Shown: positions 12,296-50,900 of the stretch, piece after piece
How positions within the stretch are numbered: position 1 is the stretch's first letter
Layout of the letters: each line of letters starts with the position of its first letter
Assembly (NCBI GenBank): GCA_021773035.1
Contig: JAJFKU010000061.1
Coordinates: 1 to 64,000, forward strand
Reading direction: 5' to 3'
DNA from: Woeseiaceae bacterium
GTDB lineage: Bacteria > Pseudomonadota > Gammaproteobacteria > Steroidobacterales > Woeseiaceae
Length of the DNA stretch: 64,000 nucleotides
Translations under genes and position numbers: made by a program
The notes under the pieces: generated by a model
What the model saw: the letters and a program-made list of their open reading frames with translations, nothing else
The model's database searches: none
Told to the model about the DNA's origin: nothing

Positions 12296-12462
12296 GGATC
12301 ATGGATTATTAAATGGTAAAATACAATCAAATAATCCCGGATGTTCAAGGAGGTTCTTGAACTCACCCACAGCGTTTAGCTGAGGGGAAAACTACGTCGG
12401 CAGTCGAAGGGGAAAGGAGAGTGACAAGAATGCGGGTAAACAGTGTTGGCAGGAGTGGACGA

Positions 12463-29072: not shown

Positions 29073-32000
29073 CTATGCGATTGGGGCATCAATTCTGATG
29101 GGAAGATCAGCAGCGATGGGTTCGTCATCCAGCATTTCAACCATTCCAGTTTTGTGAACCGCATAATTGGCAATAAATAGAGCGTTTGAATAGGAGATCA
29201 CGGCATCAACTTCAAAATGACCGTCCTTATTCAAGCCGACAAAATGCGCGGGCCTGGCGGTACCTTCGATAACGGATTTTGTGGTTTCGTCAAGAGTTTC
29301 GACGCCACCAAGGGCAGTATCCCTGCCATCTTCAAGTATATAGAACGGACCTTCTTCACCTCTCACAAAAAAGCCGAAAAAGCGTACATAGCTCAGCACA
29401 TTATCCGGGCTTAGATTAATAGGAGATTTGGCGTTGACTTCGTGTATGGGGGGAGACGTCCCGTTCAAACGATACACATTTTGTGTAACAGAGTTTCTTA
29501 GATAGAAGATGCACAATCTGGGATTTCTCCAGTGGCTATCACGTACCCTCAGTAGTTGGACATCTTTGTAAAACGGCGGGAACGTTATCAGCACTTGCGT
29601 CGACTCACTAGCCACCCGGTGTTTACCATCAATGGGGTCTAATTCTTCCAAGAATCTGCTCCGATTCTCGGCGGTAACGACGTGCCAGGGAATAGGTACC
29701 TCGTCATCGGGGCTTGAAAATTGAATGTTCTGCAGCGGCCTCAACGACCATTCATCGGCGCGGCCTTTTTCCAGAAAACTCTTCGAAGCCTCGCTGGCTG
29801 GAATAACGCGCTGTTCGCCTCTTACGGTAGCAGGCCGCGTCTCTTTTGCGGGTCTGCTTGCTTTCGCGGCTGCCTTGGAGGGTCGCGTCGCAAGCAGTTG
29901 CTCGTCGGACTTACGTTTTTCCTGAATTTGATCGAGATCGATTGTGCCTGAGTCAGAGCTGGTAACCCGGGAAGCTCCGATGGCTAGCAGATAACTCACT
30001 ATTTCAGTGTGGCCGTTTTTTGCGGCTAAAAATACAGCGGGCAGCCTGTCTCCAGTTGAATAGTCGATCTCAGTATCCTCGTACTCAGCCAATAATCGAC
30101 ACGCTTTCGCGGCGCCGATTTCTGCTGCGGCTTGTAGCGGGGTTATGGACGGCGTGTCGGCAGCAAGGTTCAGAAAACTCGGTGCTTTTCGTATCAGCAG
30201 ATTCATCGTATCGACCAGGTCATACAGTGCGGCAAAATGTAGTGCCGTCCAGCCATCTACCGTCGTGAGCGAAACGTCGGCGCCCATCTTGATGAGTCTG
30301 ATCGCCAAGTCACTGTCGCGTAGTCGAATTGCCAGGAGCAGGGCGGTCAAGCCGTTTTCGTCTTGAGCATCCCAGTTTCCGCCATTCCTGGTTAATATCT
30401 CCATAATCGTACGGTCGCCACATTCTGTTGCATCATGCAGTGGTGAGCGCTGTTTGTTGTCGCGACTATCAAGTGACAGGTCGTTTTCGATAAGGTACTC
30501 AACTATATCGCCCCGGCCTTTCATGCCTGCAGCTTGATGCAGCAGCGACTTACCGCCTGCGTTTCTTTCTTGAATATCTGCACCGGCGTCGCAGAGCATT
30601 CTCAGGAAAATCACTGAGCCGGCTCTTACTGCTTCCTCCAATGGGCTCGTTTTGGCTGCAGCTGGGTATCTGTGCGAGTAAGCGCCGGCATCTAACAAAT
30701 GTTGCACTAATTCGTGCTTTCCTAGCCGAATTGCCAGGATCAACGGCGTTTCTTTCTTTCCGTTACTGGTGTCAATACTGAAGCCTCGATCCAACAATGC
30801 GTCGACAGCCTTCAAGGGGCATTTCTCAATAAGCTCGTGCAGCAATGATGCGCCATTCTCATCATTGTCGACGATAGAAACTAACGAGTCGGAGCAGAGC
30901 TCACAAAATATATCCCATTGCTGCGTTTTTGCTGCTCGCCAAACTGGCAGAGAGGTCACTTTATCGTCGTGACGGTGGTTTCGATCGATTCTTGAACTTG
31001 CGAGTAAGGCCGATACGGTAGCTAAGGATCTCGCTTCGACCGCAAGAACCAAAGCCTGTTTACCATCATCCGATTGCGCATCGAAGTCCACGTGCGCAAG
31101 TTGCGTCAACGCTGCGACGCCGGCGGACTTGCCGTCTGAAGCAGCATACAACAGAGCAGTATTGCCGCTATCGTCTTTGGCGTTTAGATCGATACCGGGC
31201 TGAGCCCCGAGGATGCCCACAATATCGTAGGCGTTGTGCCCTGCCGATATATGCAGTGCTGTCCAGCCACCGTTTACCTTACAGTTAATGTGCAAGTCCT
31301 GTTTCAATAAGTACTGAATCAGTTCAGCAAAATCGGGTTCGACCGAGTGGTCTTTTAAGGAGCTACCTTGGCAGCAAATATGTAGCAGATTCCACCCTTT
31401 ATGCACGGTGTTTACATCGTCCCCCCGGTCCACCAGGTACTTAACAACGTGGCTGTACCCTCGCAGGGCGGCCAGGCGAATTGGTGTCCATTGAAACGCG
31501 TTTGACAAGAGTGGTTTGTCGATTGCCTCTTCGAACGACGGATAAAGGCCGAGAATGTGCTTAAGTAGATCGAGGTGTCCAGCTTCGGCCGCAAGGTGCA
31601 TTGGTGACTGTCCGCTGTCGGTTGTTTGATCGTATCTCTCTTCCAGTTTAAGCAAATAGTTAAACGCGTCAGTTTTTCCACTGAACGCCGCAAACATGAT
31701 GGGTGTATACTGTCGCCTGTTCGCCGCGCCGGCGTTGCAACCAAATTCTAACAAGAGTTCTATGATCTTTGGACTACCGCCTATACACGCGTAAGCCAAT
31801 GCGCCGGTACCCTCGCTGTTTACAAAATCCGTGTGTGCACCGTTTCTGATTAGCAGGTCAACAGTTTTGTAGCGCCCGGCTTTGAGAGCTATAGCCAGTG
31901 GGGGGGCTGCCTTCCCAGCATACAGATTGACATCTCCTTGTTGTTCCAAAAACAAGCCGGCTAACGACAGGTGCCCATTTCTTGTACTTTCATGAAGGAA

Positions 32001-33203
32001 ACCCTCACCTCGGATATTCAGGTGCGACAACGTCGCGCCTTTCCTGAGAAGCAGCTTTGCGATAGACACACAGCCGTTTTCTGCTGCGTAAATTAAGGGC
32101 GTATTGTTTTCTCCGTCTTCAATATCTATCGTCGCGGTGTTGTTACAAAGTAACTCGGCAACATCTTCAAAGTCGCGTTCTACGGCAAGGTGAAGCGCTG
32201 ACTTCGCGTCGGGGCCGAGTTCATCAACCAGGCTTCTATCGTTGGTTAATAGCTGCTCAATACGCTGTATATCGTGACCTTTAACCGCTCTGTGCAGCGG
32301 TGTTTCAGGTTGATTCAGTGAGGTCGGCTTGTGGGTCGTTAGCTGATTGAGAGTCGAGACGGGAGATGCAAAATCTGGCTCTACGTGGGTTTCGTTAACT
32401 ACAGCCTCTTGGCTTGCAGCGGCCCTATAACTCATTCGATGTGCGCCGAGTAATTCATAGCGTTTGACCACTGAGTTCGGAGCCGGCAGGTGTACTCCGC
32501 AGACGTCGATTTCATCATCCGACATATGAGAAGCTATTCTTCTGGCATTTTCAAAGTCTTCCAGTGAAATGGCTTCTATCATTCGCGCATAATTCAATAC
32601 GTTTACGTATGGCGCGATCGGTAGTTCGATTAGTGGTCGAATTCTCGAAAATTTTAGAAAGTCGGCAGAGATGTTGTTACTTATTGATGCGTCAACCATT
32701 CCCTCAGCGAGCGATTTCGCCGCCTTGTCTGGTTGATGATAGGCCAACGCGACCCAGTCTATTCGGTTGAGGTACTCGTGCTCTTCTTTACCGGTCGCCG
32801 GCAGTTTGCGTTTTCGGTGGACATAAGTCCTGACAAAGTGGGCAACCTGATTGGCACGGTTTTCTTCTACAGTTCCTGTTCTCTCGACATGCCAGGCATT
32901 CAGCATGTTGATCAGGTAGCGGCGAACCTGCCGGTCCATCTTGAAATAGCCGGCGCCCAATTCGTAAGTGAGTGACCCGTACAACACATCTGCATCGAGC
33001 GCCACATTGTGCCTGTCTTCTCTGGGCATGAAATTGATGCGAACCAGGGACGTAATATCGACCCGCAGTTGTTCCACAACCGCAAGGTGGGCGATTAGTA
33101 GCAGTGATCGTGGACCATAGGTATGGGCAAATTCAAGAATCTTCTGATTCGCTTCCGTCGGTGTTAGCCGACTGCCGTCCCATCGATAGACGACGGCATT
33201 CAT
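29073..33203 (-). CDS. Giant ankyrin-repeat protein, third component of a MoxR-vWA type system
   Basis: 1376 residues, no signal peptide, so cytoplasmic. Residues 1-290 form a helical domain with SLLLIAHLAVVEQL, VALDADVLYGSL and VALAYHQPDKAAKSLAE. This matches the pattern of the N-terminal domain of the third protein in MoxR-vWA ternary conflict systems, where it is usually fused to a sulfatase-modifying, WD40 or peptidase module. Residues 298-1110 are about two dozen ankyrin repeats (TPLHxA, GxTALHxAA). A basic, Lys/Arg/Ala-rich linker follows. Residues about 1160-1376 form an unassigned beta-rich domain containing VRFFGFFVRGEEGPFY. The start overlaps the vWA stop by 4 bases. No nuclease or protease motif is seen, so the effector activity is open. 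Confidence 0.85.
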   Translation of the reverse strand: MNAVVYRWDGSRLTPTEANQKILEFAHTYGPRSLLLIAHLAVVEQLRVDITSLVRINFMPREDRHNVALDADVLYGSLTYELGAGYFKMDRQVRRYLINMLNAWHVERTGTVEENRANQVAHFVRTYVHRKRKLPATGKEEHEYLNRIDWVALAYHQPDKAAKSLAEGMVDASISNNISADFLKFSRIRPLIELPIAPYVNVLNYARMIEAISLEDFENARRIASHMSDDEIDVCGVHLPAPNSVVKRYELLGAHRMSYRAAASQEAVVNETHVEPDFASPVSTLNQLTTHKPTSLNQPETPLHRAVKGHDIQRIEQLLTNDRSLVDELGPDAKSALHLAVERDFEDVAELLCNNTATIDIEDGENNTPLIYAAENGCVSIAKLLLRKGATLSHLNIRGEGFLHESTRNGHLSLAGLFLEQQGDVNLYAGKAAPPLAIALKAGRYKTVDLLIRNGAHTDFVNSEGTGALAYACIGGSPKIIELLLEFGCNAGAANRRQYTPIMFAAFSGKTDAFNYLLKLEERYDQTTDSGQSPMHLAAEAGHLDLLKHILGLYPSFEEAIDKPLLSNAFQWTPIRLAALRGYSHVVKYLVDRGDDVNTVHKGWNLLHICCQGSSLKDHSVEPDFAELIQYLLKQDLHINCKVNGGWTALHISAGHNAYDIVGILGAQPGIDLNAKDDSGNTALLYAASDGKSAGVAALTQLAHVDFDAQSDDGKQALVLAVEARSLATVSALLASSRIDRNHRHDDKVTSLPVWRAAKTQQWDIFCELCSDSLVSIVDNDENGASLLHELIEKCPLKAVDALLDRGFSIDTSNGKKETPLILAIRLGKHELVQHLLDAGAYSHRYPAAAKTSPLEEAVRAGSVIFLRMLCDAGADIQERNAGGKSLLHQAAGMKGRGDIVEYLIENDLSLDSRDNKQRSPLHDATECGDRTIMEILTRNGGNWDAQDENGLTALLLAIRLRDSDLAIRLIKMGADVSLTTVDGWTALHFAALYDLVDTMNLLIRKAPSFLNLAADTPSITPLQAAAEIGAAKACRLLAEYEDTEIDYSTGDRLPAVFLAAKNGHTEIVSYLLAIGASRVTSSDSGTIDLDQIQEKRKSDEQLLATRPSKAAAKASRPAKETRPATVRGEQRVIPASEASKSFLEKGRADEWSLRPLQNIQFSSPDDEVPIPWHVVTAENRSRFLEELDPIDGKHRVASESTQVLITFPPFYKDVQLLRVRDSHWRNPRLCIFYLRNSVTQNVYRLNGTSPPIHEVNAKSPINLSPDNVLSYVRFFGFFVRGEEGPFYILEDGRDTALGGVETLDETTKSVIEGTARPAHFVGLNKDGHFEVDAVISYSNALFIANYAVHKTGMVEMLDDEPIAADLPIRIDAPIA

Positions 33204-34498
33204 CGGCGAATTGACCTGATTAGGTCAACGGTCTGAAATAGCGCCTCTTTTTTTAGTTCACTCGTGTACACAAATGAAAATCGATTGCACAAGTTAACCC
33301 AATGCTCAATCCAGCGCGCCTTTGGCATGGGGTTTAACCAGACAAGTGGTCTCATTCCGTGAATTTGCGCACGCCGATAGAAGCTGTCCACGCGCTGTGA
33401 AACCCGATTCGTCATCCGGTTCCCGGCAGCTCCGGCGTCACTGTAAATGATAACCGGCGAGGTGCTGTTGTCTCTAAACAGAGTATCGACGGTAACCCTC
33501 TTATGAAGGTCCGGGAATTCGTAAACGTGTTTTCCCGGCGCTTCATTGAAGTAGTAGATATTGGCTTTCTTAAGGCCGCTCAGTTTTGAGTTAAGCGATT
33601 TAAGTAGGATATCCTCAAAGCCCTTCCAGGGCGACATGTTTTTCCCGGCATCAATGAACACTAACAAGCTTGATGCATTGACACGCTTTTCCATCATTAC
33701 CGGTGTTAGCAGGTAACCGGTCTTACAAAGTCGTCCTACTGTCTTGCGTACATCTATTCTATTGTGATCCAGCTTCTTTTTGGGAACAAATAAACGTCGC
33801 CAGAGTGACAGTAACCACAGTTCAGAGACCTCCGGCGCCGTCAAAAACAGGTAGTTTGAGTCGGGCTTTTCATCAAACGCCGGTGGTTCCGGCATAGGGA
33901 TATCGTATTTTCTCTCAAGCTCTGTATTTCTGTGTGCTGGATCGTACTCAGGGTTAACACCAAAGTGTGAGTCGCTTCCGCCCGCCGTTGCATTCATGAG
34001 TTCGCGTGTACGAAAGTCTGAAGTCTTTTGCTTTTCACCTGTTAATTGCTTTGCCGCCTTCGATGAGTCGATCTGGAGATTTTCGTCCATTTTGTTTTGG
34101 AACGGGTATACAGGCTCCGGCTCTATGAAGTCGAATTCGATATCGCTGATCGGATTCGGCGCATCCATCAGTTCGAGTAAGGCAAACGTTAACTCATTGT
34201 CGGCCGGCCGAATTTCTTCGGTGATTACACGGGCTATTGTGCTCTTTTCAGCTTCGCTCTTGGCCCATAGTGCCTGACAGATCCAGATGAGTGCGTTTCT
34301 TCTTCGAAAGATGTAGTGCCCGGTTCCCGTAGATAGACGTTGTGGGGAGATTGAACCATCGTGCAGGTCTTGCAACCTGAAGAGTTTGTCACGACAATAC
34401 CAAACCGCTCGGAGTCCATCAACATAGTCCCTGGTGCCGAGCGGAATTCCCGCCTCTTTCAGTCTCGTAAACAAACCATACAGTACTTTCGTGTTCAT
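33200..34498 (-). CDS. CoxE-like von Willebrand factor A protein with altered metal site
   Basis: 432 residues. The N-terminal region (LFTRLKEAGIPLGTRDYVDGLRAV) is the one found in CoxE-type vWA proteins that partner MoxR ATPases. A charged, probably disordered stretch at about 100-215 follows. The vWA fold is at about 270-432. The metal-ion-dependent adhesion site, normally DxSxS, reads D-A-G-K-N in VFIDAGKNM (280-288), and the later acidic loop is YSDAGAAG. Metal-bound ligand contact may therefore be weakened or changed. In this family the vWA protein acts as the adaptor through which MoxR remodels a third partner. It lies 17 bp after moxR and overlaps the ankyrin gene by 4 bases. Confidence 0.85.
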   Translation of the reverse strand: MNTKVLYGLFTRLKEAGIPLGTRDYVDGLRAVWYCRDKLFRLQDLHDGSISPQRLSTGTGHYIFRRRNALIWICQALWAKSEAEKSTIARVITEEIRPADNELTFALLELMDAPNPISDIEFDFIEPEPVYPFQNKMDENLQIDSSKAAKQLTGEKQKTSDFRTRELMNATAGGSDSHFGVNPEYDPAHRNTELERKYDIPMPEPPAFDEKPDSNYLFLTAPEVSELWLLSLWRRLFVPKKKLDHNRIDVRKTVGRLCKTGYLLTPVMMEKRVNASSLLVFIDAGKNMSPWKGFEDILLKSLNSKLSGLKKANIYYFNEAPGKHVYEFPDLHKRVTVDTLFRDNSTSPVIIYSDAGAAGNRMTNRVSQRVDSFYRRAQIHGMRPLVWLNPMPKARWIEHWVNLCNRFSFVYTSELKKEALFQTVDLIRSIRR

Positions 34499-34515
34499 GG
34501 TATTTACGTTCGATC

Positions 34516-35469
34516 CTAGCTAGCCGTGGCTTGGCTATACTTTTGCCGATCTTCCATCGTCTTGAACAGTAAATTCCACCAGGGCGGTTGGCTACCACTT
34601 ACGTCGTGGTGTTTCACGTCCCGAAGATGCAGTGCATGAACCCAATCGATCAGTTCTGCGGTGGCGGGTTTTTTTGCAGCAGCCTGATCTTTCGCGCTTG
34701 AACGTATTTCAAGAAATGTATCGACGGCCGATTCAATCAGATCGTTGGAAATGCTATCCAATCCTCCGAACCTGCCAGAACTGTGTTTTTCCCTAAGGTT
34801 GTTTTCAACGATCTCCGCCAACAACGCGGGGTTGTCGGGAAAATTCAACTCCAAGTACATGCAGCGTCGCAGAAACGGGTTCGACAGAGGGTTCTTTCTG
34901 TTGCTCGTAAAAATGATAATGGGTCTTAAGCCGCTCTCAGGAGCTTTTACGTGGGCTCCGTACTTACCGGCATCTCTTGCGATTTTGTCTTCTTCACTGG
35001 GAATTTCATCGATATGGAAGGAAAAATCATCGATTACATTGAGCAAGTCATCAGGGAAGTCTATGTCAGCCTTGTCAACTTCATCCAGTAAAATGACACT
35101 CTTCTTACCTTCATGAATGGCTTCGCCCAGGCTCTCAAGGGATATGTAATTAAAAGAATGTTCCGCCTTCGCGAGCCTTTGGGGGTCGCTGGCCTGGCTG
35201 TCTTGCAACCTGCGCAGGGCGTCAAATCGATATAGCAGATCGTTTGCGTGTGAAGTACTCTTAACGGGAACTTTCCTGAAGAAGTCGATCCCGAGGTCTT
35301 CTGCAATAGCCGCTCCCAGCGCAGTCTTTCCACAGCCCGGTTCACCCTCAACAACGATAGGCTTGCCAAGTTCTATAGCCAAATTGACGAATTCCATATT
35401 TTCGCGCGTTATTACGTATGTGCTGCAGTTTTTGCCCGTAAACTCCGGGTACTCTGTAGTGGTTTCCAT
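34516..35469 (-). CDS. MoxR-family AAA+ ATPase
   Basis: 317 residues, the usual MoxR length. Walker A is at 42-50 (GEPGCGKTA), Walker B at 125-133 (VILLDEVDK), sensor 1 in FTSNRKNPL at 187-195, and an arginine pair at about 201-202 can serve as the finger. The chain ends in a helical lid with Ala-rich sequence. MoxR enzymes act as ATP-driven remodelling chaperones, usually with a vWA protein encoded next to them, as here. All nucleotide-binding residues are intact, so it should be active. It is the second gene of the leftward operon, 80 bp after the DUF4062-like gene. Confidence 0.93.
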   Translation of the reverse strand: METTTEYPEFTGKNCSTYVITRENMEFVNLAIELGKPIVVEGEPGCGKTALGAAIAEDLGIDFFRKVPVKSTSHANDLLYRFDALRRLQDSQASDPQRLAKAEHSFNYISLESLGEAIHEGKKSVILLDEVDKADIDFPDDLLNVIDDFSFHIDEIPSEEDKIARDAGKYGAHVKAPESGLRPIIIFTSNRKNPLSNPFLRRCMYLELNFPDNPALLAEIVENNLREKHSSGRFGGLDSISNDLIESAVDTFLEIRSSAKDQAAAKKPATAELIDWVHALHLRDVKHHDVSGSQPPWWNLLFKTMEDRQKYSQATAS

Positions 35470-35549
35470 ATGTTTTACTCCGCTATTGAAGCGATTTTTA
35501 GACCTGTTGTCGGTGGTCGATAGTGCATAGAAAAAGTATCATGAGGTTG

Positions 35550-37217
35550 CTAATTGCGAATCCGGAGGCACACATATTTTTCGTAGTCGAGTTCCTTTTT
35601 CTTAGTATCCTTATTGCAAAGATCGCCAAGGACATCATCGACTCTTTCGCCAGTTATGCAGAAAACGATATTGATGATTGCCCACCGCTCTCTATTGCAG
35701 GTCTTGAGTTTTTCTTCAATAGCCTTGTAGAGCGGACGCCAGAACTTCTCATGGAACGATACTAACGGCTTTGGATCAGGCAGGTCCTTGAGTACCAGCA
35801 TGCATGATCTTTCACCGGCGACCAGAAACTCAGCTAACTGATCAATGCTATCGTTGGCTGCATTTTCGCCGAATTCCCCGAACTTCCTACGTAGCATATT
35901 GAAAACTCTTTTTTCGGCAGGGATTTTTTCCAGCCTCCAATCTTCACAGTCGGGGGTCGTCTCTTGCCAATACAATTCTTCGTTGAAATGGTTGGCGGCA
36001 CGATGTACCAAGCGTCTTTCTTCGCTATGCATGACCAGGCAGAGTCCGGGTTTGGTGTTCTTGTTCGAGAGATATCTAAACCGATCATAAAGCTTCTTGG
36101 TTCTTCCGGTATCGTCTTTGAGGGTTTGGTCGTGTGTGCGTACTTCATTGTTTGCTTCTATCGAGTCCTTGTCTTCGTGAAAAAGCCCCTTATTTTCGAA
36201 CGACTGCAAACCTTGTTCTACATCGACGAGTAATCCGTCAACGGTCTCCGGGTTCTCTATTCCCAGAAGGACGCTAGGCGGCCTGAGTTGGAGCATTTCA
36301 TCAATTCGGGATAGCTTTCGCCGGTCTTCACGAATCATCTCCAGATCGTTGTCATAACGTTGTTCCAGAATTCTCTTGCCTGCCTTCTTGAAGTGTTCGT
36401 CAAGCTCACTGCCGGGATCAGCTCTGATAACTAGTACCGGATTTTCATTTCGGATAGATGCAATAAAGGCCTTTGCCATTTCATGGTGTCGGATGGAGTT
36501 TGGATCGTCACCGTCAATATTTAGGGGAACACCGTAGGTTCTCCCGACTACAACTACATAGGCATCACGGGTTGACCGAAGTATCGTTTCGTCGATGCTT
36601 CTTAGTGTTAATTCTGGGTCTGATCTATTCCTGTAAGTCGGATGTCTTGGGATGTGATTCAGATCCCCCAATCGATTTCGCAGGCTATCTAGACAAATCT
36701 CGACATCGTCGTGCATTCCCAGCAGCAATACTTTCAATGTTCTTCTGCACATTGAAATTTCGCCGGTGGTGTTGAGCTCTTGGGTTCCCGATAGACCCTG
36801 TCGTCTATCGAATTGATATCTTGGGCTCGCCTTCACGACACGTTTTAGGCATTCATAAGGATCCGAGCGCAAGGAATAAAACGGGTCGTGCTCTGCACAA
36901 AGATATTGGATCATTGAGTCGATAGTAGCTGCTTGAGGGCCCGTCACATTGCTCTCAACGTCTGGTGCCCATTCGTTTTTGATGAATTTGATCGTGTTCG
37001 AGCGTTTAATGCCAAAAGGCTCCATGAGCTTCGTCAAGTGTTCTTGGTCTTGTAACTTCGGATCGTCTTTCAAACGCTGAACAAGAAGTTCTCCGAACCC
37101 GAACTTAATATCGAGCTTTATCGTATTTTCTTTTAGCCCCTCTTCGTCGACTAAGCGCTGGATCAAGGTAGCTACCGTGTCATCGGACAAATAGCGGTTG
37201 TCGGGTTCGTTACTCAT
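35550..37217 (-). CDS. DUF4062-like signalling protein, possible sensor of the MoxR system
   Basis: 555 residues, cytoplasmic. Residues 1-110 are charged and helical and could be a small death-like or effector-associated adaptor domain (inferred). Residues about 157-270 resemble DUF4062: a strand (LKVLLLGMHDD), then DETILRSTRDAYVVVVGRTYG, then an HHEMAKAF helix and a final strand PVLVIRAD. That domain is Rossmann-like, distantly related to TIR, and common next to STAND and other conflict proteins. Residues about 390-555 start with GLCLVMHSEERRLVHR and look like an inactive-STAND type module, without Walker motifs. It is the first gene of the operon, so it may be the signal-input protein. Domain calls are moderate to weak. 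Confidence 0.6.
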   Translation of the reverse strand: MSNEPDNRYLSDDTVATLIQRLVDEEGLKENTIKLDIKFGFGELLVQRLKDDPKLQDQEHLTKLMEPFGIKRSNTIKFIKNEWAPDVESNVTGPQAATIDSMIQYLCAEHDPFYSLRSDPYECLKRVVKASPRYQFDRRQGLSGTQELNTTGEISMCRRTLKVLLLGMHDDVEICLDSLRNRLGDLNHIPRHPTYRNRSDPELTLRSIDETILRSTRDAYVVVVGRTYGVPLNIDGDDPNSIRHHEMAKAFIASIRNENPVLVIRADPGSELDEHFKKAGKRILEQRYDNDLEMIREDRRKLSRIDEMLQLRPPSVLLGIENPETVDGLLVDVEQGLQSFENKGLFHEDKDSIEANNEVRTHDQTLKDDTGRTKKLYDRFRYLSNKNTKPGLCLVMHSEERRLVHRAANHFNEELYWQETTPDCEDWRLEKIPAEKRVFNMLRRKFGEFGENAANDSIDQLAEFLVAGERSCMLVLKDLPDPKPLVSFHEKFWRPLYKAIEEKLKTCNRERWAIINIVFCITGERVDDVLGDLCNKDTKKKELDYEKYVCLRIRN

Positions 37218-37565: not shown

Positions 37566-38018
37566 ATGAAAACCGAAACACAAACCGTGGGGTATAAGCC
37601 CCTTGCGCTCTTAACGGGCGTGAGATCTGACTCTCATACCTGGAATCTGGCGTATCTCAATCTCCATTTGGAAGAGCACGGATTCGACGTGTGTAACCTA
37701 GGAGCCACAGTTTCCCATGAAGACATTTTGCAACAGGTCAAGCGACTGAGTCCAGACCTGCTGGTGGTTTCGTCTGTCAACGGCCATGGATTCATTGAAG
37801 GGCGCGAAATCGCATCCGCACTGAGCGCGAACCTTTCCTATCTACCTAAAGTAATAGGCGGTCTGCTATCGACCGATCCGAGGGAAGAACCCTCGGTTAA
37901 GGCTGTCTTGCAGGCTGATGGCTTTGACGCCGTATTTGTCGGCCCCGGTTCTATCGATGAGTTTAGTACGTTTCTCGACAGTGTCGCGCGCGGCGTATGC
38001 AAGGAGGCGGCATCATGA
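37566..38018 (+). CDS. B12-binding small subunit of a glutamate-mutase-like enzyme
   Basis: 150 residues, the length of the sigma subunit of glutamate (methylaspartate) mutase. The cobalamin-binding signatures are DSH in VRSDSHTWN, SSVNGHG at about 77 and the late GG in VIGGLLS. The classical DxHxxG has its glycine replaced by asparagine (D-S-H-T-W-N), while the Asp and the cobalt-ligand His are kept. Glutamate mutase shifts a carbon radically to interconvert glutamate and 3-methylaspartate. GGAG lies about 8 bases before the ATG. The stop overlaps the next start (ATGA at 38015-38018). The large subunit is two genes downstream. Confidence 0.82.
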   Translation: MKTETQTVGYKPLALLTGVRSDSHTWNLAYLNLHLEEHGFDVCNLGATVSHEDILQQVKRLSPDLLVVSSVNGHGFIEGREIASALSANLSYLPKVIGGLLSTDPREEPSVKAVLQADGFDAVFVGPGSIDEFSTFLDSVARGVCKEAAS

Positions 38019-39091
38019 ACAGGGATATCCGTACATGCCTTGGCGAGTTTTTCGCGGACTCACCCTTACTGCAACTTGCTTTGACCTGGTTATCTGGAAA
38101 ACCACTCCACGATCAAATGTTACCGAAGCTGTCTGCCTGGGGACATTTCGCTCGTGCAACGATGTGGCTGTCATCGGGCGTCGGTTTAGCGTGGTTTAGT
38201 TGCTCCTCAGGTAATCTGGAACTCCTGCCGGCAGCTTGGACCATGAGCCTGTACGGCATGCGTTTCTTGCAACTGGTCGTCGTGCACAATGCTGCGCATC
38301 AGAACTTCGTACGTAATCGCTTCATTGACAAGAACGTGGGGTTTTGGGTGTCTGCACTGCTAATGATCGAGAATTTCGAGTTCTATCGAGACAATCACAG
38401 CAGAGTGCACCATAGCTGGAAATTGCTTTCCACGTATACGGATCCGACGGTGATGTCGTTGGAGAAGGCGGGGATGGTGTCAGGACGATCGGTCTGGCGG
38501 CTCAGGCTCAGCTTGGTCATCGCATTGTTTTCGCCTGTGTACCATCTGCGTACCTTCTATCAGCGTATTCGCAGCTATTGGGTAGCTAGTTCATTGCACG
38601 CGAAGCTTACGATCCTGTTCGTGATTATTTGCCAGATTGTGATCGTCGTTTGGTCAGAAACGACGTTCACTTTCACCGTCGCCTGGCTCATACCTGTGAC
38701 GGTTCTCTATCAGCAGGCGGCGTTGCTACGGCTTGTTGTTGAGCATAGCAGGGATGAACCGACTACAAAGAGATGCACAAGGGAAGACGCAGCTCCTCTC
38801 ACGACAGCAGTCTTCCTGGGTGTAGCTCCGCCACAAACCCAGGGCGTGTTCAGCTGGCTGCTCTGGGTTGTCCAGATGTTTGGTGCCTTGATAGTGCGGC
38901 TGGTTATTCTGCCGGGGGATTCCGGCGCCGCCCACGACTGGCACCACATGCACCCACGTGGCGATTGGCCTAACTACTTGGAGGAAAGACGTAAGGAAGT
39001 GTTGCTGCGACCAGAGCGCTATGACGAAGTCTGGGGCTATTGGGCCGCACTGGAAAAAAGCCTGTGCTCGATTGCCCGCGAGAACCGCTAG
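38015..39091 (+). CDS. Membrane fatty-acid desaturase/hydroxylase-like diiron protein
   Basis: 358 residues. The start at 38015 is chosen for AAGGAGG 8 bases upstream and the ATGA overlap with the B12 gene; ATG 37997 in frame is less likely. Three histidine boxes are visible: HNAAHQNF, NHSRVHHSW and HDWHHMHPRG, the last followed by DWPNYLEER. Several TM segments lie between boxes 2 and 3. This is the diiron scaffold of membrane desaturases, hydroxylases and ketolases. Being translationally fused between the two mutase subunits is unusual. The partner context suggests it acts on, or attaches to, the mutase product, perhaps on a lipid or carrier-bound form. The substrate is unknown. Confidence 0.8.
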   Translation: MNRDIRTCLGEFFADSPLLQLALTWLSGKPLHDQMLPKLSAWGHFARATMWLSSGVGLAWFSCSSGNLELLPAAWTMSLYGMRFLQLVVVHNAAHQNFVRNRFIDKNVGFWVSALLMIENFEFYRDNHSRVHHSWKLLSTYTDPTVMSLEKAGMVSGRSVWRLRLSLVIALFSPVYHLRTFYQRIRSYWVASSLHAKLTILFVIICQIVIVVWSETTFTFTVAWLIPVTVLYQQAALLRLVVEHSRDEPTTKRCTREDAAPLTTAVFLGVAPPQTQGVFSWLLWVVQMFGALIVRLVILPGDSGAAHDWHHMHPRGDWPNYLEERRKEVLLRPERYDEVWGYWAALEKSLCSIARENR

Positions 39092-39124
39092 CCTGAAAAG
39101 TCTCACTTTAACCTGGAGATATTC

Positions 39125-40417
39125 ATGATTATCAAAGATCCGTTTAACGAGTTTATTCTGCAACATTCCAGCGACTGCCTTGTCGTGCAACCGCGAATGG
39201 GGTTCAGTGATATTGGAACCATGCGCCAAGGCCTGGAGGCAGTTAAAGACCTGAATTTTCCCACGATAGGCACTATTACCGTAGATGCTATGACCAGACA
39301 GGGCCTTGTGGAAAAGGCCCGGCTAGCCGTGGCACGTGGTGACAAACTCAATGGCTTTCCTTTGGCATCTTATGACGATGCAGATGTCAGTGCCTTGTTG
39401 AGCTCCGTTGTTGGCGACCAGTTTCCGGTACAGGTACGTCACGGGACACCCTTACCAAAGCATGTATTCGACGCCGCGAGGGAGGCCGGATTAATTGCTA
39501 TAGAAGGTGGCCCGGTATCCTACGCGTTACCCTATGGTAAGACTCCGCTGCGCGAGACATTTCCAGCGTGGCGAGAAAGTGTGACGTCATGGGTTAAGTA
39601 CGGAAATGCAATCGGTGTCGATACACATATCGAGAGTTTTGCGGGTTGCATGATGGGGCAATTGTGTCCACCGCAGTTATTGCTGGCGTTGAATATTCTC
39701 GAAGGACTGTTTCTTAAATCGCTTGGCCTGCGAAGCCTCTCGTTGTCGATGGCGCAAGGAACAAATACGGATCAGGACGTGGCGTCGTTGTTGGCATTGC
39801 GCTACTTGGCGGATAATTATCTCGGGGAAGTGTCCAAGCATATCGTCGCGTATACATGGATGGGCGTTTTTCCGGATACGAGTCACGGTGCAGAACTGAT
39901 TATTAAGGAGAGCGCTAAAGTTGCGAGCATTGGTGGTGCTGAACGACTGATCGTCAAAACAGTCGATGAAGCAAGAGGGATTCCGTCCATTGAAAGTAAT
40001 TTGCAGGCAATGGAGTGGTGCCACAATGTTTCGTCAGCATTCAGGAGCTGTCCACCAAGTGTTGTGCAAAATACCCTGTCCTATCAGCTGGTAGAGGAAT
40101 CACAGCTAATCATTGAGTCGGTACTGTCAGGGCACCCTGATATTTCGACGGCAATTCAGCGGGCGTTTTCAAAGGGCGTGCTCGATGTGCCATTTTGTTC
40201 GCACCCCGACAATCTCAATCGTTCGAGGCCCGTACTGGATCAACACGGATTTCTTGGCTGGGCCGATCCAGGGAGTATTCCTGTGTTGGGGAATAGAAAG
40301 AGTATCAGCGCAGTATCGTTGACATCTGGTGGACTGCTCAAGGCGCTTGGTTTTAACAGAGAGAAATACGACTACCGTCGCAGCACAGAGGCCACCGAGG
40401 AACCGGCATGTAGCTAG
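39125..40417 (+). CDS. Large subunit of a glutamate-mutase-like (methylaspartate mutase) enzyme
   Basis: 430 residues, somewhat shorter than the usual 480-residue epsilon subunit. Family segments are visible: QPRMGF near 22, QVRHGTPLP (one of the substrate-carboxylate arginines) near 101, SYALPYGKTPLRE, an active-site barrel with QGTNTDQDVASL, WMGVFP and VKTVDEARGIPS. It should bind substrate and, with the B12 subunit at 37566, run the radical carbon-skeleton shift. No methylaspartase gene is near, so the cassette does not look like glutamate fermentation; making 3-methylaspartate as a building block is likelier (inferred). CTGGAG lies 6 bases before the ATG. The 155 bp after it hold no gene. 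Confidence 0.85.
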   Translation: MIIKDPFNEFILQHSSDCLVVQPRMGFSDIGTMRQGLEAVKDLNFPTIGTITVDAMTRQGLVEKARLAVARGDKLNGFPLASYDDADVSALLSSVVGDQFPVQVRHGTPLPKHVFDAAREAGLIAIEGGPVSYALPYGKTPLRETFPAWRESVTSWVKYGNAIGVDTHIESFAGCMMGQLCPPQLLLALNILEGLFLKSLGLRSLSLSMAQGTNTDQDVASLLALRYLADNYLGEVSKHIVAYTWMGVFPDTSHGAELIIKESAKVASIGGAERLIVKTVDEARGIPSIESNLQAMEWCHNVSSAFRSCPPSVVQNTLSYQLVEESQLIIESVLSGHPDISTAIQRAFSKGVLDVPFCSHPDNLNRSRPVLDQHGFLGWADPGSIPVLGNRKSISAVSLTSGGLLKALGFNREKYDYRRSTEATEEPACS

Positions 40418-40572: not shown

Positions 40573-41061
40573 TCATTCGTTGTCACGCTCCATTTTTCCG
40601 GGCCATGGCCAGCCGTACCCCCAGCGCCAGGGTGTCGGAAACACTCGACTTCCCGACACCCGGATAACACCGGACATCAATGCGCCGATCACCGGGTGCC
40701 CTGTTTCTGCGACGCAGCGCCGAATTTCCGCGTCCGATTCCTTTCTTTCTTCGGAGCTGCCGCCACACCAATACGTCATATCGTGCTCGACGCAGCAGCT
40801 CTGCCACTGGGAGTCGGGCCACAAAGTGCAGCCGTCTGTCCGAAACGCGTTCTGTGGCAAGAAAGCCTCGCTGCCACGACGTTCTACGCAACGCAGTTCT
40901 GCCTCTTTTTGTGGGTCGTCCGGAAACCTGGAATCCGCAAGTGGCGCGATGTCATGCGCGCAGGCTGCGCAGGTTAAGAGGATGGCGGTCGCCAGCATCG
41001 ATATCCCGAACCGAAACAACGGTTCACGTCGACGACGGTTCAGCGCGGCGGCCTCAATCAT
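40573..41061 (-). CDS. Putative lipoprotein with secretory phospholipase A2-like motif
   Basis: 162 residues. After a basic N-terminus a hydrophobic stretch ends in the lipobox CAAC, so it is probably a lipoprotein. The core carries DGCTLWPDS and then CCVEHDMTYWCGG, which matches the Ca-binding loop and catalytic His-Asp of secreted PLA2 folds (CCxxHDxxY), plus paired cysteines. It probably cleaves or binds phospholipids at the outer membrane. The start at 41061 leaves only 17 bp before the divergent gene. An internal Met at 40998, just before the hydrophobic stretch, is the alternative and would leave about 80 bp for promoters. Confidence 0.7.
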   Translation of the reverse strand: MIEAAALNRRRREPLFRFGISMLATAILLTCAACAHDIAPLADSRFPDDPQKEAELRCVERRGSEAFLPQNAFRTDGCTLWPDSQWQSCCVEHDMTYWCGGSSEERKESDAEIRRCVAETGHPVIGALMSGVIRVSGSRVFPTPWRWGYGWPWPGKMERDNE

Positions 41062-41078: not shown

Positions 41079-42833
41079 ATGTTCACTAAGAAGAGAATGA
41101 TCGCATTCCTGTGTTTAGCAGGATTGAGTTTCGATAGCGCGGCGCTTGACGGTATGGAGCACGAACGGCTTGCCGATAGCGCCATCGTTCTTGGGCTTAG
41201 TTATTGGCTGCAAGATGGTGACCTAGCCCATGTGGACGGATCATCCACGCAGTTCGATCTTTGCACAGAACTGACGAATCGTTTCGGTACCGAGGGCGTC
41301 GTCACGTTGGTGCGCCACTGCATGGAAGAGAACGCGAAGCCAATCACCTACGGCGGTACCGCGCGTGTTGTCGACGAACTCCATTTCCCGCAGCAGATAT
41401 TCGTGCGTGAGGGTCGACCGGGCGCCAATCGCGACCCTGTGCGAAACCTCCTGCCGCGTACCTACGAAGAACTGAATCATCGTTACAACGTGAGGCGCGA
41501 GTTACGGCGAAAATTTCGGAGCACGAACGCGGTGCTGGAAGGTTATCGAGCGTTGTCGTTCAACCAGGTTCATTTCCAGAATGACCTGCTTCAAAAGATG
41601 CAGAGCCTGAGGCTGCTCGCGCATTATACGGCCGAGGAAGAAATCTACTATTCGCTGATCGCAAACGCGCTCAGCGATCATTTTCTGCAGGATTACCTCG
41701 CGCCCGGCCACATTCTGTGGCCACGGAACCACTCGCACGACAGCGTTGCAACGTCAGTACACGACGGCACGAACCAAAAAGGTGCCTGGTTCGAAGTCAA
41801 TACGCAATTTTGGGACGATAACCTTCGCGCGCTGGCGGATTACGCGCAGGACTTAGCCGAAACGTCGCAGACCAATCAGATAATGAACCAATACTGGTTG
41901 AAGCGACGCGCCGATGCCGACTACATTTGCCCCGGAGGCGGTTTGGTGCGGGAGCATACGGGTGATATCGAGGAAGGTCTGCGTTGTCTGTTCGCAGCAG
42001 TACAAACAGACCATCGAATATTCCTGTATGGCGACGGTCTGGTATCAAAGTCGCCAGCCCAGCAAATGCTAATGATCCTGGTCCAGGCAGAGCGAATCGT
42101 CGAGTTGATGCGTGCACACGAGGGCGTTGCGCCACGGGTATTGCGACGTTATGAGGATATCGTGTCATTCGACGAAAACTACAAAGAACTGATGGTTCCG
42201 ACCACTGGCTTGAGTTTCGGCGACTATCGTTTTGTTTGTGAAAACTGTGGTGGCAGATACAACAACGAGCAAGAAGCATTCGAAGGGACCGTTCGGGGCG
42301 TCCTGTTGTTTGGCATCGGTGGACAATCGCCTTTTCGCAACGTTGGCTCGGCTCGCTACCAGCTTGCGCTCGAGTATCTCCCACTCGGGTTCATGGCCAA
42401 CAACGCGCGTGTCAGGAACGCGACTATACACCGGCCACCCGGCGGCTGTCGTACATGGTCGTATTGCAATACAGGTATCGCATTCGGCATGGACTATGTC
42501 CACGATGGCGAATTCACGGCACCGGGGTTCGGTTTGCGATTCATTAAGGCGATCCCAAGTGTCAATCTGCAGGTGAGTCCCTACGCCAAATTTCTCAACT
42601 ATCGATTTGCGCAGCAAACTGACTGGAATCTGTCCTGGGGCGTGCGCGCAGACTGGGGGTTCAGTATAGGCTCCTTCTATATATCGGCCGGTAAGGAGTA
42701 TTTCGTCAATGACCGGAGAGCGCTGGAGTCGACCGGAATGGTTTCCTTCGGCATCGGTGTTGGCTTGCCGGTGTCTCGTGTTCGCAAGTGGACGGTCGAC
42801 AACAGGCGCTATAAACCGGAGGACGACTATTAA
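41079..42833 (+). CDS. Exported zinc-phospholipase-C/S1-P1-like protein with C-terminal beta-rich region
   Basis: 584 residues with a short signal peptide (SFDSAALD). The N-terminal two-thirds are helical. Histidines occur in positions typical of the zinc-dependent phospholipase C / P1 nuclease fold: MEHERLAD at the mature N-terminus, LLAHYTAEEE, then SDHFLQDYLAPGH and NHSHD. The last 170 residues alternate hydrophobic and polar residues (FGLRFIKAIP, ISAGKEYFV) and resemble an outer-membrane barrel or beta domain. It is likely a periplasmic or outer-membrane phospholipid or phosphoester hydrolase. ATG 41097 is a possible alternative start. The neighbours are three other lipid-hydrolase-like genes. 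Confidence 0.65.
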   Translation: MFTKKRMIAFLCLAGLSFDSAALDGMEHERLADSAIVLGLSYWLQDGDLAHVDGSSTQFDLCTELTNRFGTEGVVTLVRHCMEENAKPITYGGTARVVDELHFPQQIFVREGRPGANRDPVRNLLPRTYEELNHRYNVRRELRRKFRSTNAVLEGYRALSFNQVHFQNDLLQKMQSLRLLAHYTAEEEIYYSLIANALSDHFLQDYLAPGHILWPRNHSHDSVATSVHDGTNQKGAWFEVNTQFWDDNLRALADYAQDLAETSQTNQIMNQYWLKRRADADYICPGGGLVREHTGDIEEGLRCLFAAVQTDHRIFLYGDGLVSKSPAQQMLMILVQAERIVELMRAHEGVAPRVLRRYEDIVSFDENYKELMVPTTGLSFGDYRFVCENCGGRYNNEQEAFEGTVRGVLLFGIGGQSPFRNVGSARYQLALEYLPLGFMANNARVRNATIHRPPGGCRTWSYCNTGIAFGMDYVHDGEFTAPGFGLRFIKAIPSVNLQVSPYAKFLNYRFAQQTDWNLSWGVRADWGFSIGSFYISAGKEYFVNDRRALESTGMVSFGIGVGLPVSRVRKWTVDNRRYKPEDDY

Positions 42834-47409: not shown

Positions 47410-47906
47410 AAAGCTGGTGTTGGCAGCTTGATGGGCAGTAACAGAGAGAGGATTCCCGCGGTGGGGCTCTAAACTACAGGCTCGTTCAGCCCGTGAATCT
47501 GAACGATTCGCAATTGCAGAAACAGCGTATTTTGCGCAGATCCGTAAAACCACATTTGGTTGAAAAGAACTCGAACGTCGAAAGCGACGTCATTATCTGA
47601 ACACTTTGTTCCAGTTTTTTGCCGAGACACGATGCAGTGATCAGCCGGGTAACTAAGGCAAATCAACCGATCAGAGTAGCCGAGTTTTCGTACATGGGCT
47701 AGATAGCCGGATTCCCGATTGCCTCCGGCACGGGTAATCAAACACCTGCATTTGATACTTACTGTGATACTGGAACCGAATTGGTTTCTTGTGCGTAATT
47801 AATGGGCATAAGAAACCGAGCCGAATGTTCCAGGTGGTTGATTACCATATTTGACTCAGAAGGCCGCTTCGATTCCTAATTCTTCCAAATCTTGGGGAGA
47901 TGTCAG
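47410..47906. other. Intergenic region upstream of the giant RHS gene
   Basis: 497 bp with no supportable gene. A 90-codon frame on the minus strand (47469-47741) lacks a ribosome site and recognisable motifs and is left out. The end of the stretch carries the ribosome site for the RHS gene (GGGGAG at 47894-47899). The composition becomes AT-richer at 47730-47850, which may hold the promoter. Confidence 0.35.
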
Positions 47907-50900
47907 ATGTTCGGGATCGTGAATTCTCGGCGAGTGTCGTCGACGTGGGCTGTAGGTGTTTGGGCCAGAGTTGCCGTGGCGCTGTTGCTCATCGGGGCGA
48001 GTTCGTCGGCGATGGCAGGGATTTCCATCTCGCCGTCGCCGAGTACGGGCGACTACACGGTGTCCTGGACGTCCGTTTCCAACTCGATCAACTACACGCT
48101 CTATGAAAGTACCAACGGGGGTAGCACCTGGAGTGCTTCCTACTATACGTCTCTGACGCGAAGCAAGAGCTTCACGGGTAAATCGAGCGGGACGTATACC
48201 TACAAAGTCCATCGTTGCCAAGAGGTAATGGCAGGGCCACCCGGTGAGCGGGAACTGGTGGTGATCTGCGGAAATACCTGGTTCACCAATACTTCGATCG
48301 TCGTACAGGTGCCCATTCCACCGGTTCCCGGCGGACTAACCGGGCCCACGACCGACTACAACGGTTCGTACACGATCAGCTGGAATACGAGTTCGGGCGC
48401 AGCGTCGTACAAGCTGCAACAAAAATTGGGGTCGGGATCCTGGGCACAAGTTTACTCAGGGGCGTCGACGAGCAAGGCGCTGTCGGGTAACGCAGCCGGC
48501 ACTTACTATTATCGAGTACAGGCGTGCAATTCGTCCTCAGAATGCAGTAGCTGGTCGTCGACCAAGACCGTGACGGTGCAGGCTGCGCCATCGACGCCGG
48601 CGACGCCGAGTGGACCGACGACAGACTATAACGGTGCGTACACGGTTTCGTGGAGCGCATCGACGAACTCGACCAGCTACCGCCTGCAAGAACGGGTAGG
48701 TTCAGGAAGCTGGACGCAGGTTTACTCCGGCTCGTCGTTGAGCCGGGCGGTCAGCGGTAAGTCGGCGGGCACGTATTCATATCGGGTGAGAGGTTGCAAC
48801 ACGGAGTCGGTCTGCAGCGGCTGGTCGGGGACCCGGACGGTGACGGTGCAGGCTGCGCCATCGACGTCGGCGACGCCGAGCGGACCGACGACGGACTACA
48901 ATGGTGCGTACACGATTAGTTGGAGTTCGTCGACGAACTCGACGAGCTATCGGCTGGAAGAGAAGGTGGGTTCCGGCGCGTGGACGCAGGTTTACTCGGG
49001 CTCGTCGTTGAGTCGGCCCGTTAGCGGTAAGTCGGCGGGCACGTATTCGTATCGGGTTAGGGGCTGCAATACGGAGTCTGTCTGCAGCGGCTGGTCGGGG
49101 ACCCGGACGGTGACGGTGCAGGCGGCGCCATCGACGCCAGCGACGCCGACGGGCCCGACGAGCGATTATGACGGTTCGTACACCATTGCCTGGAGCGCGT
49201 CGGCGAACTCGAGCAGCTACCGTTTGGAAGAAAAGGTCGGTTCCGGGAGTTGGGCGCAAGTGTATTTCGGCTCGTCGCTGAGCCGGGCGGTCAGCGGTAA
49301 GGGTGTCGGCACGTACTCGTACCGGGTTGAGGGTTGTAACGCGGAATCGGTTTGCAGTGGTTGGTCGGGAACCAAGACTGTCACGGTGCTGGCGGTCCCG
49401 TCACCGCTGACGGGCCCCAGCAGCGACACCGATGGTTCTTTCGCGCTCAGCTGGGTCAGTATCGCGACCGCTACCTACTACAAACTCGAACGTCGCGTAG
49501 ACGGCGGGGGCTGGGCCACGATTCTGCCGAATCCTACGACGACGACTCACAGTGAAACCGCGTTGCTCGACGGTGAGTGGGAGTACCGCGTTAGCGCCTG
49601 TGACGGCAGCGGCTGCAGTGCGCCGACTGCGACGAAATCCGTTGACATTGCACGCCAGCCGGGCACGCCCGCGTCACTCACCGGTCCGGATGTCGTTGCT
49701 GCCAACGTGGGGACATATACACTCAATTGGGGCGCTGCGGCAGGGAACGTGAGTTCTTACGAACTGCAGGAAAGCGTCCATAACTCCAGCAGCTACTCTA
49801 CTATCCAGAACACTGCGGCGATGAGCCGCTCTTTCTCGCCGAAGCCGACAGCGTATTACTACTACCGTGTCCGGGCCTGCAATACGGTCGGTTCGTTGAC
49901 GAGCTGCGGCAATTGGACTTCCTCGATAGTCGTTCACGCCGCAGTCATCATCGACGTGAATCTGACCGCGCCGGCCCAGAGTCTTACCGGCGCTTACACG
50001 GTAACGTGGACCCAGGCGCCCGTCGGCTCGTATAACGCACTGCAAGAAAGCATGGACGGCGGGCCTTGGGGCGACATTTATTACGGTGTTGGCGGCTCCT
50101 TTGCTGTCAGCGGGCGCCTCGACGGCAGCCACAGGTATCGTGTGAGACTTGAGACTACGGTTGGTCCGCCGCATGAACCGATTGACATCGTAAAGTACTC
50201 GGAGGCAGTAACGACCGTCGTGGGGCAGATCCCGGAACCACCCATCACGTTTACAACGGTAGCCGGTAGTCAGCCTTACGAGACCGGCGTAACGAAAGGC
50301 GGAAACGGCTACATTCACGTACCCATCGAAGCGGCACCGGGTGTGAATGGCTTCCAGCCGAGTTTGACGTTCGTGTACAACAGCGGTCGTGATCGTCAAC
50401 GCGCCAGCGAGCAGTTGGCCGGGGACTTTCTTGGCTATGGCTGGAGTTTAGGTGGATTCTCAACTATCCGCCGATGCGTAAAGGGTCAGGCCAATTCGAA
50501 CTCGATCGATCTGGATACCAGCGACCGCCTGTGCCTGAACGGCGAGCCGATGATTCTGGTCTCCGGTTCCTGGTGGCAGCCCGGGTCCGAGTATCGAACC
50601 TATCGCGAGAGCTTTCACAAGATCGTGATGCAGGGCAGTGTAAGCGAGCCCTGGTTCAGGGTTTACGGACCTGACGGCAGCATCAGTGAGTTCGGAAATA
50701 CCTCTGATAGCCAGCTCCGCAGTATCAACTATGTAACCCAGGGCAACCAGACGACTGCTGTACCTACGGACTCCTATCTCTGGTCGATCAACCGCCAGCA
50801 GGATCCCTTCGGCAACGTGATGGATTTCGTCTACTACGAGGATGAAGCGGCGGGCGTCAGGCATCCCGCGTCGATCAGGTACGGAAATAACCAGGATGCA

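Follow-up and report, generated by a model that had tools for sequence, protein, structure and literature searches.

Genes and layout of the cassette

We analysed a stretch of 64,000 nucleotides from a Woeseiaceae bacterium (assembly GCA_021773035.1, contig JAJFKU010000061.1, positions 1 to 64,000; "the window" below means this whole stretch) and identified within it a cassette of three forward-strand genes. Two of these encode the subunits of a putative glutamate mutase, and the third encodes a desaturase-like membrane protein, here called the oxygenase. The features of the cassette are listed below with their support.

37566-38018, + strand: small B12-binding (sigma, S-like) subunit gene, 150 aa; open reading frame (ORF) and PF02310
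38002-38018, + strand: AGGAGG and ATGA start/stop overlap; read from the sequence
38015-39091, + strand: oxygenase gene, 358 aa with the ATG at 38015 as its start; the automatically called ORF opens 18 bases upstream
39125-40417, + strand: large (epsilon, E) subunit gene, 430 aa; ORF and PF06368

The small-subunit stop and the oxygenase start share the ATGA at 38015-38018, with the AGGAGG just 5' of it, and this junction is likely to couple the translation of the two genes; the oxygenase stop and the large-subunit start are 33 bases apart. An earlier note, made from the sequence alone, had read the genes in this order as a B12 subunit, a desaturase-like protein and a large mutase subunit. The ORFs, Pfam and NCBIfam agree with both the order and the identities, and the ATGA overlap that it described between the first two genes is present. 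The same note called the mutase split. Two separate subunit genes are indeed found, but this is also normal in ordinary glutamate mutases, such as those at comparison loci L002 and L003, and the unusual feature of the locus is instead the placement of an oxygenase gene between them. A promoter scan gave 2 sites against a mean of 3.0 in shuffled sequence, which is no excess, and a terminator scan gave about the same number of sites as the shuffles (5 against 4.1).

A distinct branch of glutamate mutase

The small subunit matches the B12-binding family PF02310 (E 3e-14) and the large subunit matches the MutE family PF06368 (E 1e-78; 265 bits against a cut-off of 26.6). Among solved structures in the PDB, they match GlmS (1be1, E 2e-8) and GlmE (1cb7, E 5e-34), respectively. 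The NCBIfam equivalog cut-offs were not reached by the E chain (166.5 against 390.1) or by the S chain (54.1 against 110, and 39 against 135.8), and we take the window mutase to be a sister branch to the NCBIfam E and S equivalogs rather than one of those equivalogs.

A scan of named genomes found 492 relatives of the mutase among 582 candidate stretches, and the named-genome locus counts given here refer to the best 80 of these 492. A non-ribosomal peptide synthetase (NRPS) or polyketide synthase (PKS) motif was present in the fetched flanks of 48 of the 80 loci, and at least one of ten chosen biosynthetic markers, detected by simple pattern or tblastn, was present at 74. We use "biosynthetic branch" as a label for mutases akin to that of the window, after their marker-rich loci. 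Plasmid records gave 30 matches, 17 of them at about 40-47% identity (in Streptomyces, Streptantibioticus, Kitasatospora and Methylobacter) and the other 13 at 27-32%. In a sample of the class, 5 of 369 genomes matched the large subunit, the source genome (G000) included; the two best of the other matches are about 30% identical and are accompanied by small-subunit and MutL-like genes. Across a phylum sample of 398 genomes, strong matches to the biosynthetic-branch large subunit came only from G000 (609 bits) and G643 (559 bits), with four others at 211-231 bits. Only one mutase large subunit was found in G000, which carries both of the cobalamin adenosyltransferase families searched for, that is, a supply of the cofactor.

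In clostridial glutamate mutase, the arginine claw R66/R100/R149 together with E171 and Y177 are the residues that hold glutamate, as described in excerpts of PMC10947579. We aligned 105 large-subunit rows of the branch (window, named genomes, plasmids and Pseudomonas genomes, some of them nearly identical), and the equivalents of these five residues, R24, R58, R105, E127 and Y133 in the window protein, were invariant in 105/105 rows. Window residues Y137, K278 and E282, which we take to have roles in the mutase as well, were likewise invariant (105/105). Because the glutamate-contact residues of the clostridial enzyme are invariant in the branch, glutamate is the likely substrate, and the reaction is likely to be the conversion of glutamate to 3-methylaspartate. 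Glutamate had also been the substrate assumed in the earlier note, and the contact residues contain nothing incompatible with it.

Other positions mark the branch. Cys 175 of the large subunit was found in 105/105 branch rows and Cys 181 in 103/105, and neither occurs in L002 or L003, the two ordinary rows on which the contrast between branch and ordinary enzymes is based. In the small subunit, D22-x-H24-x-x-N27 replaces DxHxxG, with the D, the H and the N each present in 103/103 branch rows; the last DxHxxG position is A in both ordinary small chains aligned (again L002 and L003).

Glutamate fermentation by the methylaspartate pathway was rejected, since neither the methylaspartase C-domain (MAAL_C) nor the MutL reactivase was found in the source genome. 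MAAL_C had 0 matches in G000, in a search that registered 11 of 14 controls, 2 of them over the cut-off; MAAL_N also had 0 matches, but its control was likewise silent. MutL was absent from G000 (0 matches) and over the cut-off in 4/4 other genomes compared. Because these four MutL-positive, mutase-bearing genomes also lack MAAL_C over the cut-off (0/4), the absence of MAAL_C is weaker evidence, and methylaspartase absence alone does not set G000 apart. The remark in the earlier note that the mutase stands without methylaspartase thus holds for the genome as searched, as it does for the four others.

A membrane oxygenase related to GntB

The protein encoded between the mutase subunits had no Pfam match above cut-off, PF00487 included, and nothing better than E 1.6 among solved structures (PDB). 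Its only NCBIfam match is GntB (NF041365; E 4e-12, 46.1 bits against a cut-off of 380), and GntB is also the best NCBIfam model for 8/8 oxygenase relatives scanned. Nine histidines, arranged as H91xxxH95, H128xxxH132H133, E243H244 and H307xxH310H311, are invariant in 21/21 aligned rows, the window included. The motifs HxxxH, HxxxHH, EH and HxxHH are typical of membrane diiron desaturases and hydroxylases. Three hydrophobic stretches of the protein exceed a simple hydropathy cut-off. Since three relatives pass the PF00487 cut-off of 29.7 bits (L154 with 58.4, L123 with 48.5 and L010 with 37.7) while L031 and L009 have no match, the kinship of this family with fatty acid desaturases is real though distant.

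Recurrent linkage of oxygenase and mutase

We searched 398 phylum genomes with the oxygenase alignment and found some match in 74, with E below 1e-40 in six (G000, G751, G761, G643, G424 and G699). One of the five new genomes with strong matches, G643, carries oxygenase, small-subunit and large-subunit genes contiguously. Within its genus, Pseudomonas, 23 of 398 genomes had a mutase match, and the contexts were read for 21 of these (G1025 and G1000, which gave fragments, were left out). Two clades emerged. In the close clade (75-100% identical), the genes lie in the order oxygenase-small-large, contiguous and on one strand, at 11/11 loci. In the other clade (43-44%), a PP-loop-like gene precedes the large subunit, an asparagine-synthetase-A-like gene is present and no oxygenase match was found, at 10/10 loci. 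Some locus genes were picked by a rough length-and-GC rule, and some of the ORFs so listed are false.

A search with the oxygenase alone gave 20 matches in 358 Pseudomonas genomes. Eleven were full-length at 63-100% identity and came from exactly the 11 cassette genomes and no others; eight were distant (27-31%), in genomes without a mutase match, and one was a fragment. The fragment, of 73 residues, lies in G1041 (L195:3405-6252) alongside LysE-type, alcohol dehydrogenase (ADH)-like and LysR genes, and the surrounding 13 kb that were fetched yielded no mutase gene. This locus is apparently a remnant of the Pseudomonas cassette, as would be left after joint loss. The intact Pseudomonas cassettes have LysE-type and divergent LysR genes nearby in 11/11 cases and an ADH-like gene in 9/11; these may be parts of the cassette or just its usual neighbours in Pseudomonas. 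Over the 104 other branch-mutase loci collected, the oxygenase is present in 13, namely the 11 in Pseudomonas and two of the 80 named loci. These two (L031 and L040) are near-identical Streptomyces clusters in which the oxygenase lies about 5 kb upstream of the small-large pair, a third arrangement.

Because the trio is contiguous in another order at 11/11 close-clade Pseudomonas loci, the adjacency of oxygenase and mutase is, on this comparison of loci, not due to chance. The genome-context search for the three genes that the earlier note had called for thus returns the trio, in oxygenase-small-large order where the window has small-oxygenase-large. Given this difference in order, the adjacency either outlived a rearrangement or arose by two assemblies. 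In the oxygenase tree, the window protein joins the 11 mutase-linked Pseudomonas oxygenases in a single starred group (97/93), and the Streptomyces oxygenases fall elsewhere, with L009, L122 and L123 (88/87). We regard the grouping of the window with Pseudomonas as good but not final, and both a single origin with changed gene order and two separate assemblies are possible.

A phage-borne or close plasmid-borne cassette was tried as an explanation and rejected: the oxygenase had no phage match, plasmids gave no close copy of the Pseudomonas cassette and the 64-kb window contains no tRNA. One transposase-family ORF lies in the window at 5784-6332, 31 kb from the cassette.

Proposed pathway and alternatives

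We propose, with moderate confidence, that the trio encodes a two-step route in which glutamate is converted to 3-methylaspartate and the methyl branch of that product is then hydroxylated, the final product possibly being exported. In the first step, judging from the conserved residues, the adenosylcobalamin-dependent mutase (genes 1 and 3) would rearrange L-glutamate to (2S,3S)-3-methylaspartate. In the second, the membrane diiron oxygenase, probably co-translated with the small subunit, would oxidise 3-methylaspartate with O2. The most likely reaction here would be hydroxylation of the C3-methyl to give 3-(hydroxymethyl)aspartate, from which a lactone could then form. In a third step, suggested by the loci of relatives, the product would leave the cell as a free amino acid, maybe as an antimetabolite or signal.

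The setting of oxygenase relatives outside mutase loci bears on both the substrate and the position of oxidation. Five of seven such relatives lie near amino-acid-type exporters: AzlC and AzlD at L122 and L009, AzlC at L010 and EamA at L008 and L123. The genes that follow the oxygenase at L123 encode a HilB-like dioxygenase (E 3e-40; 137.7 bits against a cut-off of 350), an EamA exporter and a threonine deaminase. HilB works after HilA, an isoleucine 4'-dioxygenase, according to excerpts of PMC3684760. We read the C4' of this system as the methyl on C3, which fits the NCBIfam name for HilB, 3(1)-hydroxy-L-isoleucine 4-dioxygenase. By analogy, the L123 oxygenase would occupy the place of HilA. 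Isoleucine and 3-methylaspartate share the (2S,3S)-3-methyl pattern. Because the L123 oxygenase would stand in HilA's place and the two amino acids share this pattern, we propose the methyl branch as the target of oxidation, which is a guess with some support.

Several observations weigh against the proposed route. The window oxygenase shares just 27-29% identity with the Pseudomonas cassette oxygenases and has a long row in the tree (1.5), as several others do. The large-subunit tree leaves the window row unplaced, and forcing it to join Pseudomonas costs 1.96 log units (approximately unbiased (AU) test, p 0.4), which neither establishes nor rejects a shared clade. The mutase was absent from 59/59 other relatives searched, 36 of them of the same genus, so that there is no close comparison case. 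No recognised exporter, ligase or regulator adjoins the window cassette, no exporter was recognised at L125 or L126, and none of the nine partner and exporter genes tried, with one exemplar each, adjoined the 8 distant Pseudomonas oxygenases. The regiochemistry is drawn from one neighbourhood, L123, and from a HilB match below the curated cut-off. Structure prediction of the oxygenase (window, L031 and L040) was of low confidence (pLDDT, the predicted local distance difference test, 40.8).

Of the alternatives, the same pathway with another oxidation survives best, although we judge it unlikely. Here the oxygenase would desaturate its substrate to 3-methyleneaspartate or hydroxylate C3 to give 3-hydroxy-3-methylaspartate. 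The membrane desaturase-like fold family performs both desaturation and hydroxylation, sequence does not tell the two apart and the linkage evidence applies equally to this alternative; on the other side, the best model, GntB, is a hydroxylase and the HilB-like gene at L123 favours the methyl branch.

It is improbable that the oxygenase acts on lipids and that an acylated or lipid-linked methylaspartate is what the cassette produces. The relatives that pass PF00487 (L154, L123 and L010) and the three hydrophobic stretches would suit a lipid enzyme, but PF00487 does not match the window protein, L031 or L009, and the window protein and 8/8 relatives all fit the GntB model better. The neighbours, too, read mostly as amino-acid exporters (LysE, AzlC/AzlD and EamA) and amino-acid enzymes, and the sole carrier protein observed is part of an NRPS module that adjoins the oxygenase at L126. 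The earlier note had foreseen a compact pathway to either a modified methylaspartate or a lipid-linked product; its first option is favoured by the recurrent linkage and the mutase residues, whereas the GntB-like model and the amino-acid-type exporters near relatives speak against the second.

We likewise assign little probability to separate functions, in which methylaspartate from the mutase would enter a peptide or polyketide line encoded at another place in the genome and the oxygenase would serve an unrelated reaction. The NRPS or PKS motifs at 48/80 branch loci are what this would lead one to expect. However, a Pfam scan of the 27 flanking window ORFs turned up neither NRPS nor PKS domains (a search that did not extend to the whole genome), and the oxygenase linkage is constant in the Pseudomonas clade. 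Least probable of all is the reverse order, in which the oxygenase would begin by hydroxylating glutamate or some other free amino acid and the mutase would then rearrange the result, since although the Pseudomonas gene order opens with the oxygenase, the tested pocket residues of the mutase are identical in all branch rows, whether or not an oxygenase lies nearby.

Beyond the hydroxylation of 3-methylaspartate that we favour for the window cassette, a broader generalisation can be put forward only tentatively. Amino-acid-specific membrane diiron oxygenases may hydroxylate the C3-methyl of (2S,3S)-3-methyl amino acids, and their pairing with a mutase may be a minimal O2-dependent route to an antimetabolite or lactone signal that is exported, a route that gammaproteobacteria and Streptomyces would have assembled on more than one occasion; on balance we doubt that all of this will hold.

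Comparison with known systems and significance

The mutase belongs to the same protein families as clostridial GlmS/GlmE and has the same substrate residues. Ordinary large subunits are about 28-30% identical to that of the window; the window branch has DxHxxN, Cys 175 and Cys 181, and its genome lacks MutL and MAAL_C. A closer parallel is vicenistatin biosynthesis, in which VinH/VinI are likewise large and small subunits that make (2S,3S)-3-methylaspartate for a natural product and disruption of vinI, described as a glutamate mutase E subunit gene, abolishes vicenistatin (excerpts of PMC11284099). In that system, the amino acid enters a polyketide line, whereas the window mutase has a membrane oxygenase as its partner and the window showed no assembly line.

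For the oxygenase, the nearest curated model is GntB, the L-arginine gamma-hydroxylase of guanitoxin biosynthesis and a transmembrane enzyme en route to enduracididine (excerpts of PMC10367076). It is a transmembrane enzyme that oxidises an amino acid, as we propose for the window enzyme, but a score of 46 bits against a cut-off of 380 indicates the same broad family and a different enzyme. The Hil operon is also compact and oxidises a 3-methyl-branched amino acid, with a core LysR-type regulator and, in some hosts, an RhtA exporter, according to excerpts of PMC3684760. HilA and HilB, however, are dioxygenases of PF13640 and PF10014, while the window has a desaturase-like membrane enzyme and an amino acid that would be made in place by the B12 mutase. 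We found no match to PF13640 (hilA) or PF10014 (hilB) in the cassette proteins or the 27 flanking window ORFs.

The enzyme types are thus known, and it is their combination and the proposed product that are new. No report of a mutase-oxygenase pair was found in the open-licence PubMed Central (PMC) literature, which is weak evidence of novelty, and hydroxymethylaspartate, in the spellings tried, was not found there either. If the proposal is true, the three genes of the cassette make an amino acid that we did not find mentioned in that literature, and they do so by joining a B12 radical mutase with an oxygen-dependent membrane diiron enzyme. Membrane amino-acid oxygenases would also gain a second substrate class beside that of GntB, in the form of compact, clonable parts. 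With the Pseudomonas copies, the pathway can be tested in laboratory strains.

Related clusters and other features of the window

We observed a sister arrangement (L007:6898-12258, L049:328-4866 and L161-L170) in Methylobacter, Pseudogulbenkiania and Pseudomonas. It comprises an asparagine-synthetase-A-like gene, a B12 small subunit, a GGGKDS (PP-loop-like) protein of about 500 aa without a Pfam match, and a large subunit. Its first gene at L049 is class II tRNA-synthetase-like (PF00152), and Pseudomonas locus L070, whose large subunit is identical to that of L166, has ATP-grasp and PanB-like genes besides. From its gene content, this arrangement appears to lead to an amidated or ligated methylaspartate.

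The Streptomyces cluster that contains both mutase and oxygenase (L031:359-14030 and L040; gene list read in L031) also includes a class III aminotransferase, an amino-acid kinase, a luciferase-like monooxygenase, a flavin reductase and a semialdehyde dehydrogenase. Three ATP-grasp genes, one with an L-amino acid ligase domain, are present in L031 as well, and the cluster reads like a route via methylaspartate semialdehyde to a methyl-diaminobutyrate peptide. Plasmid clusters of Streptomyces and Streptantibioticus (L011:7471-17230 and L006) hold a mutase, a solute-binding protein, a drug/metabolite transporter (DMT) exporter, an aspartate kinase, a semialdehyde dehydrogenase and a TauD-like dioxygenase. 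The L011 cluster has LeuC/LeuD too, according to its annotation; the content of L006 was read by eye.

In the window itself, the neighbours of the cassette look unrelated to it. Upstream, on the minus strand, are an unmatched protein, an AAA ATPase, a weakly CoxE-like protein and an ankyrin protein. Downstream are an unmatched minus-strand gene, an unmatched protein of 584 aa, a hydrolase and a patatin. The three neighbours without a Pfam family lie at 35550-37217, 40573-41061 and 41079-42833. The minus-strand set at 29073-37217 includes an ankyrin-repeat giant (PADLOC PDC-M72A, E 3e-78), the weakly CoxE-like protein, the AAA ATPase and a 555 aa protein with no Pfam or PADLOC match, and as a whole it resembles conflict or defence systems of the MoxR-vWA type. 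Further from the cassette, the window contains two giant RHS-repeat ORFs, at 47892-55439 (2515 aa) and 654-5198 (1514 aa). Two erythromycin-esterase-family proteins (PF05139) are encoded near each other at 12421-13917 (E 5e-62) and 17548-19041 (E 1e-60).

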